DNA of 64,000 nt from the NCBI GenBank assembly GCA_016865505.2, contig AP025252.1:5850137-5914136 (forward strand), written 5' to 3'. The stretch is from Bryobacterales bacterium F-183 (GTDB lineage: Bacteria > Acidobacteriota > Terriglobia > Bryobacterales > Bryobacteraceae). The notes beneath the pieces were generated by a model. That model was not told where the DNA came from, did no database searches, and worked only from the letters and a program-made list of their open reading frames with translations. Both the position numbers and the translations under genes were made by a program. This document shows positions 57,895 to 64,000 of this stretch, one piece after another (the stretch's first letter is position 1; every line of letters begins with the position of its first letter).

Positions 57895-60378
57895 TTAGTC
57901 GTTACGTAATGCGCCAAGTGGATCCATGCGGGACGCGCGCAGCGACGGCACCAGGGCCGCCAACACCGCCGAAAACAGCAGGATCGAGATGGAGGCGCCC
58001 AAAACCAGCGGATCCGCCGGCGTCAGACCGTACAACTGCGTCTGCACCAGCCGTCCCGCACCCCATACGGCAGGCATCCCCGCCGCCACCCCGATGAGGG
58101 ACATCGCAAGGGACTCCAGCAGCACCATGCGTACCACCGTCGCAGGCGTCGCGCCCAACGCCATGCGTACGCCGATTTCTGCCGTCCGGCGCGCCACAGA
58201 GTACGCGAGTACGCCATAAATGCCGACGGCTGCCAGGGTGAGCGCCAGGACACCGAACCAGAAGGCGAGCTTGGCGAGCATCCGCTCCTGGGTCAGCGAC
58301 CGGCGAAACAGTTCGCCCATCGTGGTGATCTCGGTGATCGCCAGATTCGGGTTCTCCTGCCGAAGCAGATTGCGAACCTGCGGAATGAGCGACTCCGGCT
58401 GAACCCCAGCAGCCGCGCGCACCAGTAAATCGCTGTAACCGTCCTGCTGTTGCGCGTTGTACTGGAAGATCATGCCGCCAAACGTCTCGCGCGGATTCTC
58501 GATCTTCGCGTCCGACACAATTCCAATAATTCGATGCGCGGAGCTGCTTTCGCGCGACAGATACACGAGCTGTCCAACGGCGTTCCCCGCGGGGTACAGG
58601 CGCTTGGCAGCCGTCTCGCTGAGCACCACTACGCGCTCAGCCTGCGGCGAGTCAAAACTGCTGAACAAGCGCCCGGCCAGCAGGCGCATCCCGGTCACCT
58701 CGAAGTACCGCAGCCCGACGCGATTCCCGTCGTAGCGTTGCGTGTTGCTATTCCGGTCCCGCGGTACGCCTTGGGGCCATGCGGGAGCGCCCCAGCGTCC
58801 GGCGTCGTAATGCACCATTGTGTAGCTCGCCGCGGCGACCCCCGGCAGAGTATTCAGCTTGGCTTCAATCCGCTCGCTCTGGCGCAGCTGTTCCGATTCG
58901 GGAAGCCCAGTGGCGTTCGAGTCGAGACCCACAAACAGCGTACTCTGCGTGTCGAACCCGGGGTTGGTCTGCTCCAGCCGTTGCAGGGTCTGGAAGAACC
59001 AGCCGGCTCCCGCAGTCAACACCAGCGCCAGCGCCACCTGCGCCACTACCAGCATCCGGCCGGACAGCGAGTTCGCGTTGGCCACCGTACCCTTGCCCTC
59101 CGCCTGCAGCGACGCGGGGGTACGGCTCAGGCGCAGCGCGGGCCACCAGCCAAACAGCAGCCCAGTTACCAGACACAGCGCGACGTGGAAGCCCAGCACC
59201 AAGGGCTGCAACCCGACGTCCAACTGTACGCCGCGGGGATCGCTGGACACCAGCGACACCAGGTACGGCGCGGCCCAAACGGCTAGCACGAGTCCGAGTA
59301 CACCGCCCAGGCACGACAGCACGACACTTTCCGTCAAAAGCTGTGCGATGAGGCGGCCGCGAGTGGCCCCCAACGCGATCCGGACCGAGGCTTCCCGCTG
59401 CCGCGCCGACACACGGGCCAGCAGCAGGTTCGCGATGTTGGCCGACGCGATCAACAGGATCAGCCCGACCATCGCCAGCAGAATATGCAAAGGTTCGGAG
59501 TACTGGCGGCGCAGCAGGGACGTTCCGCGGGAGGCTTCGTTCAGCTCCGCCTTGGCGCGCGGGATCGCCGCAATGCGCTCCGGCGAGGTACCGGCGACGC
59601 GCTCCAGCCACTGCCGGTAAATGACATCCACCTGGGGCTGTGCGCTGCCGATCGTTACCCCGGGGGCGAGCCTTGCGATCAACCACAGGGACTGCGCCAG
59701 CGCGTCCCGGCTATTGCCGGTCCAGGGCTGCAACTGGGCCTGGGATTCGAGCGGTGTCCAAAAGTCCGGCGATTCGCCCACTACCGTACCCGCAAAGCCT
59801 CGGGAGGCGACGCCGGTGATCGTGTACGCCTGTCCATTGATCGCTACCGAGCGGCCAACGACATTGGGGTCGCCGGCAAAGCGGCGTTGCCAGTAGGCAT
59901 AGCTCATCACCGCTTCGTTGGCGGTCTTGCCTCCCGTGAAGAAGCGGCCGGCGGCAGGACGGATGCCGAGCAACGGGAAGTAGCTGTCGGACACGATGCG
60001 GATCTGCATCGGTTCCAGTGCGGCGTTGGACGTAAAGCGGCCATGCGCTTCCGCGGTGAGGCTGGCGATGGCTGCCGTACCCGAAAAAATCTTTTGCGTG
60101 GCGTTGAGATGATCGAAAAAATCGCGGGAATACAGGACCGAGCGGCCGTTCGGGAAGCCCCCGAACAAACCCGCACCGCGCGTATCGCCGAACACCACCA
60201 GTTCCTGTGGTTTTTCCACCGGAAGCGTTCGGAACACCAGGGCGTCCAGCACGCTGAAGATTGCCGTATTGGCACCGGTACCCAAGGCGAGCGACACCAG
60301 TGCAACGAGTGTAAAGCCGGGGTTGGAGGCGAGGGTGCGAAGGGAAACGCGGAGGTCCTGGAACAGCATGGCACCCAA
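57895..60378 (-). CDS. MacB/FtsX-type permease, acidobacterial duplicated orphan permease (ADOP) family
   Basis: The protein has 827 residues and is built of two MacB_PCD-FtsX halves. It has the N-terminal 'LRVSLRTLASNPGFTLVALV', periplasmic 'AAGRFFTGG', a first TM group around residues 290-430, and a second copy ending in 'VYGVLAYSVARRTAEIGVRM' (its first residue is Ile in the protein) and 'RMDPLGALRND'. No ABC ATPase gene is adjacent, which fits the 'orphan' permeases expanded in Acidobacteriota. Its function is unknown; MacB-like mechanotransmission without its own ATPase is possible. The true start may be the internal Met at codon 4. Confidence 0.9.
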   Translation of the reverse strand: MGAMLFQDLRVSLRTLASNPGFTLVALVSLALGTGANTAIFSVLDALVFRTLPVEKPQELVVFGDTRGAGLFGGFPNGRSVLYSRDFFDHLNATQKIFSGTAAIASLTAEAHGRFTSNAALEPMQIRIVSDSYFPLLGIRPAAGRFFTGGKTANEAVMSYAYWQRRFAGDPNVVGRSVAINGQAYTITGVASRGFAGTVVGESPDFWTPLESQAQLQPWTGNSRDALAQSLWLIARLAPGVTIGSAQPQVDVIYRQWLERVAGTSPERIAAIPRAKAELNEASRGTSLLRRQYSEPLHILLAMVGLILLIASANIANLLLARVSARQREASVRIALGATRGRLIAQLLTESVVLSCLGGVLGLVLAVWAAPYLVSLVSSDPRGVQLDVGLQPLVLGFHVALCLVTGLLFGWWPALRLSRTPASLQAEGKGTVANANSLSGRMLVVAQVALALVLTAGAGWFFQTLQRLEQTNPGFDTQSTLFVGLDSNATGLPESEQLRQSERIEAKLNTLPGVAAASYTMVHYDAGRWGAPAWPQGVPRDRNSNTQRYDGNRVGLRYFEVTGMRLLAGRLFSSFDSPQAERVVVLSETAAKRLYPAGNAVGQLVYLSRESSSAHRIIGIVSDAKIENPRETFGGMIFQYNAQQQDGYSDLLVRAAAGVQPESLIPQVRNLLRQENPNLAITEITTMGELFRRSLTQERMLAKLAFWFGVLALTLAAVGIYGVLAYSVARRTAEIGVRMALGATPATVVRMVLLESLAMSLIGVAAGMPAVWGAGRLVQTQLYGLTPADPLVLGASISILLFSAVLAALVPSLRASRMDPLGALRND

Positions 60379-61056: not shown

Positions 61057-62085
61057 ATGATCGACTTACGCAGTGATACCGTCACCAAACCGACCGAGGC
61101 GATGCGCCGCGCCATGGCGAACGCCGAAGTCGGCGATGACGTGTACGGCGAAGATCCCACCATGAACCGCCTGGAAGCGCGTGCGGCGGAGGTCTTTGGC
61201 AAAGAGGCGGCAGTGTGGACCCCCACCGGTTCGATGGCCAACACCCTGGGCCTGAAGGTAAACACCAATCACGGCGAAGAGATCATCTGCGAGGCCCGCG
61301 CCCACATTCAGGACTGGGAGTTTTCCATGGCCGGATGGTTCTGCGGCTGCCTGCTACGCACCATTGAAACGGACGACGGCATCCTGACCTGGGACAAGAT
61401 TGAGGCCAAACTCCGGCCGGACGGTCCGCACTGTGCGCCGACCACCTTGGTGGAACTCGAAAACACCCACAACATGCACGGCGGTACGGTGTACCCCGTG
61501 TCGACCATCGGGCGCATCTGCGACGAGGCCCACGACCGTGGACTGAAGGTCCACTTGGACGGCGCGCGTATCTTCAACGCGGCGACTGCTTTGGATGTAC
61601 CGGTTGCCGAAATCGTAGAGAAGGTGGATACGGTGAACGTTTGCCTGTCCAAGGGTTTGGGTGCCCCAGCCGGTTCCCTGTTGATCGGCAACGCGAACAC
61701 GATCACCCGCGCCCGCAAGATGCGCAAACGGCTCGGCGGCGGCATGCGCCAAGTGGGCATCCTGGCGGCGGCCGGTTTGATTGCTCTCGACGAGATGCCC
61801 GCGCTTCTATCCGCCGATCACGCCAATGCACGGCTCATCGCGGAACGTGTGGCGGAGATACCCGGCGTCTCGATCGACGTCGATAAGGTGATGACCAACA
61901 TCGTGATCTTCGACATCGCCAGGACGGGCAAGGACGCAACGGCCGTCAGCGCGGAACTCAAGCGGCGTGGCGTAATCATCAATGGCGTGGGAGGTACGCG
62001 GATGCGCGCGGTGACACACTACGACGTCAGCCGTGCCGATTGCGAAGAGGCCTGCGCGATTCTGTCGGACGTGTTGTCGAACTAG
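61057..62085 (+). CDS. ltaE: Low-specificity L-threonine aldolase
   Basis: The protein has 342 residues. It opens with the typical 'MIDLRSDTVTKPTEAMRRAM' and 'AEVGDDVYGEDPT'. The Asp that pairs with PLP is in 'KVHLDGARIFNAA' and the PLP Lys in 'NVCLSKGLGAPAGSLL'. It splits L-threonine or allo-threonine into glycine and acetaldehyde. Its TAG stop is shared as a CTAG palindrome with the convergent gene. Confidence 0.95.
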   Translation: MIDLRSDTVTKPTEAMRRAMANAEVGDDVYGEDPTMNRLEARAAEVFGKEAAVWTPTGSMANTLGLKVNTNHGEEIICEARAHIQDWEFSMAGWFCGCLLRTIETDDGILTWDKIEAKLRPDGPHCAPTTLVELENTHNMHGGTVYPVSTIGRICDEAHDRGLKVHLDGARIFNAATALDVPVAEIVEKVDTVNVCLSKGLGAPAGSLLIGNANTITRARKMRKRLGGGMRQVGILAAAGLIALDEMPALLSADHANARLIAERVAEIPGVSIDVDKVMTNIVIFDIARTGKDATAVSAELKRRGVIINGVGGTRMRAVTHYDVSRADCEEACAILSDVLSN

Positions 62086-63161
62086 ACCCCGGCGTACTCG
62101 GGGTTCGCCACCTGGATTTCGAGCGGTGGCAGTTCCCGGCGGCCCAGCGTCACCGCCATCAGATGCGTACCCGGCACAACGCCATCCGGCATCTGGAACC
62201 GGATCTCGTAACGCCGCAAGGTCGCGTCCACGCAGCGGTTTTCGTACCCCCAGGCGGGCTTGCCGTCGATCCTGGCAGAGAAGTGATCGGGGTTGGCCAG
62301 TTCGTCAATCAGCGCGGAAATCGAGCCGTCCGAATGCCGCGTCACCGAAACCATCCGCGGCACTTCCGGCGGCGGTGGGATCACGCGTAAGGTGCCCGGT
62401 TTGCCCATGCGCTCACCCATCCAAAAGGCTTCCACCGGCAGCAATCCGGTTTGTTCCAGTTCCGGCATCTGCGCGACGATCTGCCGGATGTCGCGGCTGT
62501 CGCTGGGGCTGATCGACTGCACCCCGGCGCACGCGCCACCCAGGCGGATCTCCAGGTCGAAGATGTCTACCTCGTCCGGCAACCCTTGTACCCAAACGGC
62601 GATCGACGCAAAGCGTCCACGCGACGGCGCGACGGGCAACGTACGCAAGGCATTGGTGACCTTGCGGACGTCAATCGCCGTGATCCCGGCGAGTACACCA
62701 AGCTGTTCGCGCCAGTTCATTTCGCGACGCCGCCACAGCAATCCGGAGGCGCCCACCGGACCCGGACCCGTGTGTACCAAGGCCTGCAACTGATAGCGCC
62801 GCGTGAGATCGACCAGTTCCTGCGGCGCCAGGTAATGCGCGCCGATTTTCATGAGAAACAGCCCGCCCACGCTCAGCATCCGGGACCCTTCCCGAATACA
62901 GCTCACCAACCAATCCCGGTCGTACTCCAGCGCGTTGTAGCGTTCCGCGTCGAGCACCAGGTCAAACCGGTCCAGCGACCCGTCCGGCACCGAGGACAAG
63001 TCCAAACGCCCCCCAGCCCTGACCTTGTTCAGGTCCCGGCTATTGTCCGTATCCCGCGCATTGGGCGCCACACGGAGAACACGGGTTCGCGACGGCGCCT
63101 GCGCCGCGTACAACGCGGCAAGGTGCTCAATGGGCGCTAGGTGCGGATTCGGCTGCAACAT
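62082..63161 (-). CDS. Methyltransferase-like protein with C-terminal beta-domain
   Basis: The protein has 359 residues. The N-terminal ~140 residues resemble a class I methyltransferase without a clear glycine-rich SAM loop: 'RFDLVLDAERYNALEYDRDW' corresponds to the motif after beta4, and 'SRMLSVGGLFLMKIG' to beta5. The C-terminal ~170 residues are beta-rich ('IFDLEIRLGGACAGVQSISP', 'QTGLLPVEAFWMGER'), perhaps an IPT/Ig-like domain. It is divergent from a Wzt-like gene, which suggests a role in surface-polysaccharide assembly. Loss of the SAM-binding loop raises the possibility that it is not an active enzyme. Confidence 0.6.
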   Translation of the reverse strand: MLQPNPHLAPIEHLAALYAAQAPSRTRVLRVAPNARDTDNSRDLNKVRAGGRLDLSSVPDGSLDRFDLVLDAERYNALEYDRDWLVSCIREGSRMLSVGGLFLMKIGAHYLAPQELVDLTRRYQLQALVHTGPGPVGASGLLWRRREMNWREQLGVLAGITAIDVRKVTNALRTLPVAPSRGRFASIAVWVQGLPDEVDIFDLEIRLGGACAGVQSISPSDSRDIRQIVAQMPELEQTGLLPVEAFWMGERMGKPGTLRVIPPPPEVPRMVSVTRHSDGSISALIDELANPDHFSARIDGKPAWGYENRCVDATLRRYEIRFQMPDGVVPGTHLMAVTLGRRELPPLEIQVANPEYAGV

Positions 63162-63273: not shown

Positions 63274-64000
63274 ATGTCTATCGAGCTTCGCGACATCACC
63301 TACGGTCCGTTGAAGGGTGTGAGTGCCTGGGCGCCCAAGGGTGCCATTATCGGCGTGGTCGGGGAAAAGGGGTCCGGCACGTCGGACCTGTTGCGGCTGA
63401 TGGCCGGCATCGCGCAACCGGACGCCGGTGAAGTGGTCGGTCCGGGCAATCGCCGCTTTGTCGGCGAAGCAGAGCCCGTCAGCCCCGCTCCCGTGGACCT
63501 GCTGGCCATTGATCATGCCCTGGGCAAGTACGACGCGCTGATCCGCGCCCGTACGTTTGTCGGCCTCGAGCGCCTGCGCAAAGCCGGCGCTACCGTGGTG
63601 ATCACCAGCAACGAAGAGGACATGCTGGAGCGCATCTGCGACGAGATTTGGTGGGTGCATGAAGGCACCGTCGCCGCCAAGGGAGACCCGCGCGACACCT
63701 TGCGCAAGTATCGCGCGCACATCAACAGCAAGTTTCAGTCCTGGAGCGAGAGCCTCAAAACCAAGATCGAGCCCGTAGACCGCCGCGGGGACCAAAAAGC
63801 CGAGGTCAAGCAACTGCAGTTGGTGAACGCCAAAGGCAAGCCCACCTTGGTGTGGCGCAGCGGCGAGGACGTAGGCATCAGCGTTACGGTTGGCTATTCG
63901 GCGCCGGTAGAAAATCCGGTGGTCGGTATTCTAATCCGCACCCGCATCGGCTTTGAGGCGTACGGCACCACCACCGCGCTCGAAGGCACGAAACTGGCGC
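63274..64000 (+). CDS. Wzt-like protein with a degenerate, shortened ABC ATPase domain (cut by window end)
   Basis: The frame is open to the window end (242 residues seen). The N-terminal ~145 residues align with polysaccharide-export ABC ATPases (Wzt), but the P-loop reads 'GEKGSGTSD' (Lys replaced by Thr36). Residues 57-76 replace the ~110 that normally hold the Q-loop, helical subdomain and signature. Walker B reads 'DLLAIDHALG' (Glu to His81), and the H-loop is 'TSNEED' (His to Asn113). After 'GTVAAKGDPRDTLRKY' comes a Wzt C-terminal glycan-binding-like domain ('EVKQLQLVNAKGKP', 'VGILIRTRIGFEAYGTTT'). It should not hydrolyse ATP and may serve as a carbohydrate adaptor. Confidence 0.75.
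   Translation, partial: MSIELRDITYGPLKGVSAWAPKGAIIGVVGEKGSGTSDLLRLMAGIAQPDAGEVVGPGNRRFVGEAEPVSPAPVDLLAIDHALGKYDALIRARTFVGLERLRKAGATVVITSNEEDMLERICDEIWWVHEGTVAAKGDPRDTLRKYRAHINSKFQSWSESLKTKIEPVDRRGDQKAEVKQLQLVNAKGKPTLVWRSGEDVGISVTVGYSAPVENPVVGILIRTRIGFEAYGTTTALEGTKLA

Follow-up and report, generated by a model that had tools for sequence, protein, structure and literature searches.

The window analysed here is a stretch of 64,000 nucleotides (G000:C1:5850137-5914136), which is part of a 6.28-Mb genome. At its end, an open reading frame on the forward strand, from 63274 to 64218 (+), encodes a Wzt homologue of 314 amino acids, referred to below as P1. The frame was open from 63274, as the earlier note had described it; residues 1-242 of the 314 are encoded within the window (63274-64000, +), and the last 73 lie beyond it. 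By reading the whole-genome contig past the window end, the stop codon was found at window-equivalent positions 64216-64218. The Pfam profile of the Wzt_C carbohydrate-binding domain (CBD, PF14524) matched residues 169-302 of P1 with an E-value of 5.6e-30 and a score of 104.7 bits (Pfam cut-off of 30.4), which bore out the Wzt-C-like domain that had been proposed. The first part of this domain is at 63778-64000 (+), the remainder being past the window end. The ABC_tran profile (PF00005) gave a partial match, covering only the first 42 of its 137 positions. The hinge-helix segment KGDPRDTLRKYRAHI (residues 136-150) was located at 63679-63723 (+). Divergent from P1 lies a methyltransferase-related gene at 62082-63161 (-), whose product (P2) has a degenerate N-terminal half and a conserved C-terminal domain. 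A frame of 827 amino acids at 57895-60378 (-) resembled, by eye, an FtsX/MacB-like permease.

Inspection of the ATPase part of P1 revealed that the Walker A motif GxxGxGK[ST] was absent; the sequence at this site is GEKGSGTS, with the Lys replaced by Thr (P-loop remnant GEKGSGTSD, residues 30-38, 63361-63387, +). The catalytic Glu of Walker B was replaced by His in LLAIDH (remnant LLAIDHALG, residues 76-84, 63499-63525, +), and the H-loop His was replaced by Asn in TSNE (remnant VVITSNEED, residues 108-116, 63595-63621, +). All three replacements had been claimed from the window and could be read in P1. The loss of the Q-loop, the helical subdomain and the ABC signature was also confirmed, but the missing piece was 62 residues rather than the ~110 suggested before. 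The spacing from P-loop to Walker B was 45 residues in P1 and 107 residues in all of the eight genuine Wzts compared. A profile-profile alignment showed a single gap, between P1 residues ~58 and 74, which takes out these three elements; the junction lies around residues 59-73 (63448-63492, +). The profile of compact homologues aligned to that of genuine Wzts with a probability of 100% and an E-value of 1.7e-82. Two proteins (L021 and L067) whose P-loop reads GKST had been considered as genuine Wzts, but they proved to be compact members and were taken out of the genuine set.

The compact homologues were found to differ in how much of the ATPase they retain. The Walker B Glu was retained in 0/42, the P-loop Lys in 15/42 (followed by Ser or Thr in four of these) and the H-loop His in 31/42, and no signature or Q-loop was present in any compact homologue examined. 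An erosion series was observed down to 248 amino acids, with the cap pocket described below intact in 19/20. In the proteins of G601 and G603 (~248 amino acids), the Walker B segment was gone, while the hinge segment and CBD were still present; no other part of the NBD persisted as well as the hinge segment, also where erosion was strongest. At the loci of these two genomes (L106 and L107), and also at L108, L110 and L111, the P-loop and Walker B were unrecognisable or gone, with the hinge and the CBD pocket intact. As read from the aligned proteins, the parts for ATP hydrolysis were deleted or lost in every member, and the hinge segment and the CBD with its predicted cap pocket were kept. The earlier note had seen several independent losses in P1, which is wrong in part: two of the changes, namely the 62-residue deletion and the missing Walker B Glu, are ancestral and found family-wide, and only the Asn of the H-loop and the altered pocket residues belong to the window's genus alone.

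Homologues of 272-334 amino acids were found in 42 of the 101 genomes searched first, and a 43rd was split between contig ends. A search for homologues with the same gap, which had been recommended, showed that it is shared by many genera. Across the taxonomic family, which belongs to the Acidobacteria, at least 145 of 237 genomes carried the compact form (profile matches, E below 1e-85); this count, like the others on homologue presence, on partners and on one Wzm gene given below, was tallied by hand on genomes that are often incomplete. In the sister family it was found in three genomes (G068, G071 and G073). A phylum-wide scan of 396 genomes gave no compact form outside the family at a strict cut-off, a threshold that may miss divergent copies of the sister family. 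In a maximum-likelihood tree, all 42 compact proteins were separated from the eight genuine Wzts with support of 98/94, and the window's genus was nested within the compact clade on a long stem (0.81). On this tree the compact form appears monophyletic, with a single origin from a Wzt of the O-antigen type in a common ancestor of the two bacterial families.

It was reported that the pocket holding the O-antigen in Aquifex Wzt is built by the CBD dimer together with one NBD's hinge helix, and that the contacts of the 3-O-methyl cap include Asn313, Leu300, Thr346, Ala348, His350 and Trp362, which are contacts to 3-O-methylmannose (PMC9445017). The equivalent residues were mapped by sequence alignment only, the numbering of the Aquifex chain being one higher than that of the paper. 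An AlphaFold model of two sequences, the congener protein and the window fragment, had a pLDDT of 35 and was discarded. The equivalents of Asn313, Thr346, Ala348, His350 and Trp362 (N-T-A-H-W) were identical in 40/40 compact homologues outside the window's genus, and were kept in 64/66 once 26 further genomes were added. They were conserved even in homologues in which the ATPase core was nearly gone. The compact family has His at the position equivalent to His350, where Gln was found in 7/8 of the genuine Wzts compared. The hinge residue Tyr233 of Aquifex, which contacts the second sugar, was also considered, but it is Arg or another residue in compact homologues, and the conserved tyrosine is its neighbour.

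Altogether, 42 positions were conserved in at least 39 of 40 homologues, and 36 of these 42 fall in the linker and CBD. P1 deviated at seven of the 42, three of them in the pocket (N233T, A270T and H272Q), so that it shares two of the five residues (T and W) with Aquifex. The hypergeometric P value of this mild excess was 0.026, but as it was computed post hoc, after the pattern had been seen, it should be regarded as a lead rather than a test. A second lineage with an altered pocket (A to Y, H to E) was represented by G633 and G386 (L122, L156 with L145, L146).

The product of the P2-type gene in other genera consists of a complete class I methyltransferase and a C-terminal domain without a Pfam match. 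This partner was present in 43/43 genomes with the compact protein and in 6/58 without it (Fisher 2e-22, a value inflated by shared ancestry); within the family, the corresponding fractions were 40/40 and 5/21 (Fisher 1e-10, with ancestry uncorrected). The two genes were within 10 kb of each other in 26/43 genomes, and in the other 17/43 they were separated by more than 10 kb or lay on different contigs; their co-occurrence persists where they are far apart. A beta-helix protein (PF13229; L053:10976-12220 and relatives) followed the same pattern as the methyltransferase and was present in 38/43 genomes with the compact protein. An ATP-grasp-like neighbour (c3) was rejected as a member of the module, as it was common in family genomes without the pseudo-Wzt (within-family Fisher 0.006). 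This protein (L092:6127-7482, G000:C1:6091460-6092815; PF14403, circularly permuted ATP-grasp type 2, below Pfam's cut-off) is widespread in the family and often adjoins the pseudo-Wzt, but is not tied to it.

The earlier note had remarked that the neighbour of P1 lacks a clear SAM loop. This is true in the window, but mainly a feature of its genus: the glycine-rich SAM motif I was absent from P2 of the window and of the congener, where about the first half of the methyltransferase domain was lost, whereas the methyltransferase core including motif I was intact in 35/37 copies in a first set of relatives and in almost every copy of a second set. In G633 and G386, the partner was a methyltransferase of reduced length and greater divergence that retained motif I. 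Altered pockets in two lineages, i.e. the window's genus and G633 with G386, coincide with a degenerate or divergent methyltransferase. There were two exceptions. G634 has a similarly divergent partner and a normal pocket, and in G493 a partner (L143, G493:C381) has a deletion removing motif I, the pocket is normal and a second, intact copy exists (L147).

Neither of the two genomes of the window's genus yielded the beta-helix gene. P1 and P2 were nevertheless still adjacent and under purifying selection there, with an omega of 0.068 for P2 between the two congeners. Because the SAM site of P2 was lost and the pocket of P1 was changed, the pair in this genus most likely acts as a binding module whose ligand is altered or unmethylated. 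The idea of a non-enzymatic pair, raised in the earlier note, fits the window's genus, but this would be a derived state, as the partner is a complete methyltransferase elsewhere.

Such an unusual protein could in principle be a sequencing or assembly artefact caused by a deletion or frameshift. Nothing found spoke for it, and the chance of this is negligible, because an independently assembled congener (G001, JAFDVT010000686.1) carries the same 314-amino-acid protein with 92% identity, and the deletion is common to dozens of genera; nor was an intact copy found in any close relative. It might also be a decaying pseudogene or the relic of a lost O-antigen operon, as the N-terminal lobe erodes progressively across genera and the catalytic motifs are variable. 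However, complete frames were found family-wide, and dN/dS between the two congeners (NG86) was 0.0180/0.983 for P1 residues 1-150, the NBD remnant (omega ~0.018), and 0.088/1.128 for residues 151-314 (omega 0.078), giving an omega of ~0.05 for the whole protein. The omega of the NBD remnant being lower than that of the rest, the degenerate half is the more constrained one at the congener time scale. Together with the 42 conserved positions and the presence in at least 145 of 237 genomes, these values make decay very improbable, and dN/dS and conservation in the main refute it. Selection for a non-catalytic, glycan-binding role, as the earlier note had argued, is well supported by the occurrence in many genera, the monophyly, the omega of ~0.02 in the NBD remnant and the conserved residues of the predicted pocket.

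If the protein binds glycan, it may serve an exporter in trans, making a Wzm/Wzt pair that lacks a CBD specific for its glycan. According to work cited in PMC9445017, CBD-truncated WzmWzt regains export in vivo when an isolated CBD is supplied. The window's genome contains, at three separate sites, a CBD-less Wzm/Wzt pair (L103:5681-7246), a lone Wzm (L102:5904-6710) and a lone full-length Wzt whose CBD is divergent (L066:9871-11157), and the first two of these would suit such a role. But no Wzm gene was present at any of the 48 compact-Wzt loci checked, whereas all seven genuine Wzt operons that were examined in other genomes contained Wzm. By hand tally, the Wzm of the CBD-less pair was found in 27/40 family genomes with the compact protein and in 12/21 without it; with no co-occurrence signal, the pair was rejected as the transport partner. 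A complete, CBD-bearing Wzt is also present in most relatives. An in-trans role is hence rather unlikely, and the adaptor for another transporter that the earlier note had suggested, while conceivable, found no support. The Wzt/Wzm pair sought past position 64000 was not beside P1, where no exporter gene was found; a pair, CBD-less, exists elsewhere in the genome. A different proposal is that the ligand is an intracellular methylated polysaccharide, e.g. a carrier or storage glycan, and not an exported one. It would agree with the absence of an exporter at the locus, with the expected cytoplasmic location of both pseudo-Wzt and methyltransferase, and with the match of the pocket to the 3-O-methylmannose contacts of Aquifex Wzt. 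The linked beta-helix protein, however, has an N-terminus that by eye is signal-peptide-like in some copies, e.g. in G005, which points to an exported glycan. Nor were glycan synthesis genes found at the 48 compact loci, where one glycosyltransferase family, that of the genuine operons, was looked for. An intracellular ligand is improbable.

The genes that track the pseudo-Wzt are those of a SAM methyltransferase and, in most cases, a beta-helix protein; Wzm does not. From this and the conserved pocket, the protein would be a non-ATPase receptor for a methyl-capped glycan. We consider it probable that the pseudo-ATPase is a transporter-free receptor for a methyl-capped glycan end, acting alongside the methyltransferase, and that it has become an altered binding module in the window's genus. 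The partner methyltransferase would cap a glycan end, and a pseudo-Wzt dimer would bind the capped end in a pocket of CBD and NBD hinge, as in Aquifex Wzt. Binding would take place without ATP-driven release, so that the pseudo-Wzt would act as a cap receptor, which may hold, measure or pass on the glycan. The receptor of the window's genus may work with a changed ligand and a non-enzymatic partner. A fuller scenario is put forward more tentatively, as plausible: in a single, stable conversion, an ABC-transporter ATPase may have become a receptor that recognises methyl-capped glycans without a transporter and is paired with the cap-making enzyme, the pair of the window's genus being purely non-enzymatic. 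If true, nature would have uncoupled the cap-recognition half of an O-antigen exporter from its motor and retained it in its own right, and graded intermediates would still exist today. The family would also be a system for testing how a Wzt-type pocket chooses its cap, since pocket and methyltransferase have both changed in two lineages.

No paper describing a Wzt-derived pseudo-ATPase was found in the open-licence literature, which is weak evidence of absence. Compared with Wzt of the WzmWzt O-antigen ABC exporter of Aquifex aeolicus (PDB 7K2T, 8DKU), P1 is homologous over its full length save for the 62-residue gap, and both have the P-loop lobe, Walker B lobe, H-loop helix, hinge helix and Wzt_C domain in the same order. 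Unlike Aquifex Wzt, P1 has no catalytic Lys, Glu or His, no Q-loop, helical subdomain or signature, and no Wzm neighbour, and it is shorter (314 amino acids versus about 400-440 for Wzt). In E. coli O9a, the methyltransferase WbdD and the cap-recognising Wzt_C domain of Wzt form a functional couple (PMC3482155, PMC9445017). A similar couple of a methyltransferase and a Wzt_C-domain protein is predicted here, but the putative compact receptor is cut off from the export motor, and its partner, unlike WbdD, has no kinase domain in its Pfam profile and has lost the SAM site in the window's genus. A further comparison is provided by the genuine Wzt operons of relatives (L059, L060, L061, L062, L063, L065 and L047), whose Wzts have a Wzt_C domain of the same type, up to 49% identical. 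These operons differ from the compact loci in carrying Wzm and, in 6/7, the same glycosyltransferase, and in the intact P-loop and Walker B of their Wzts.
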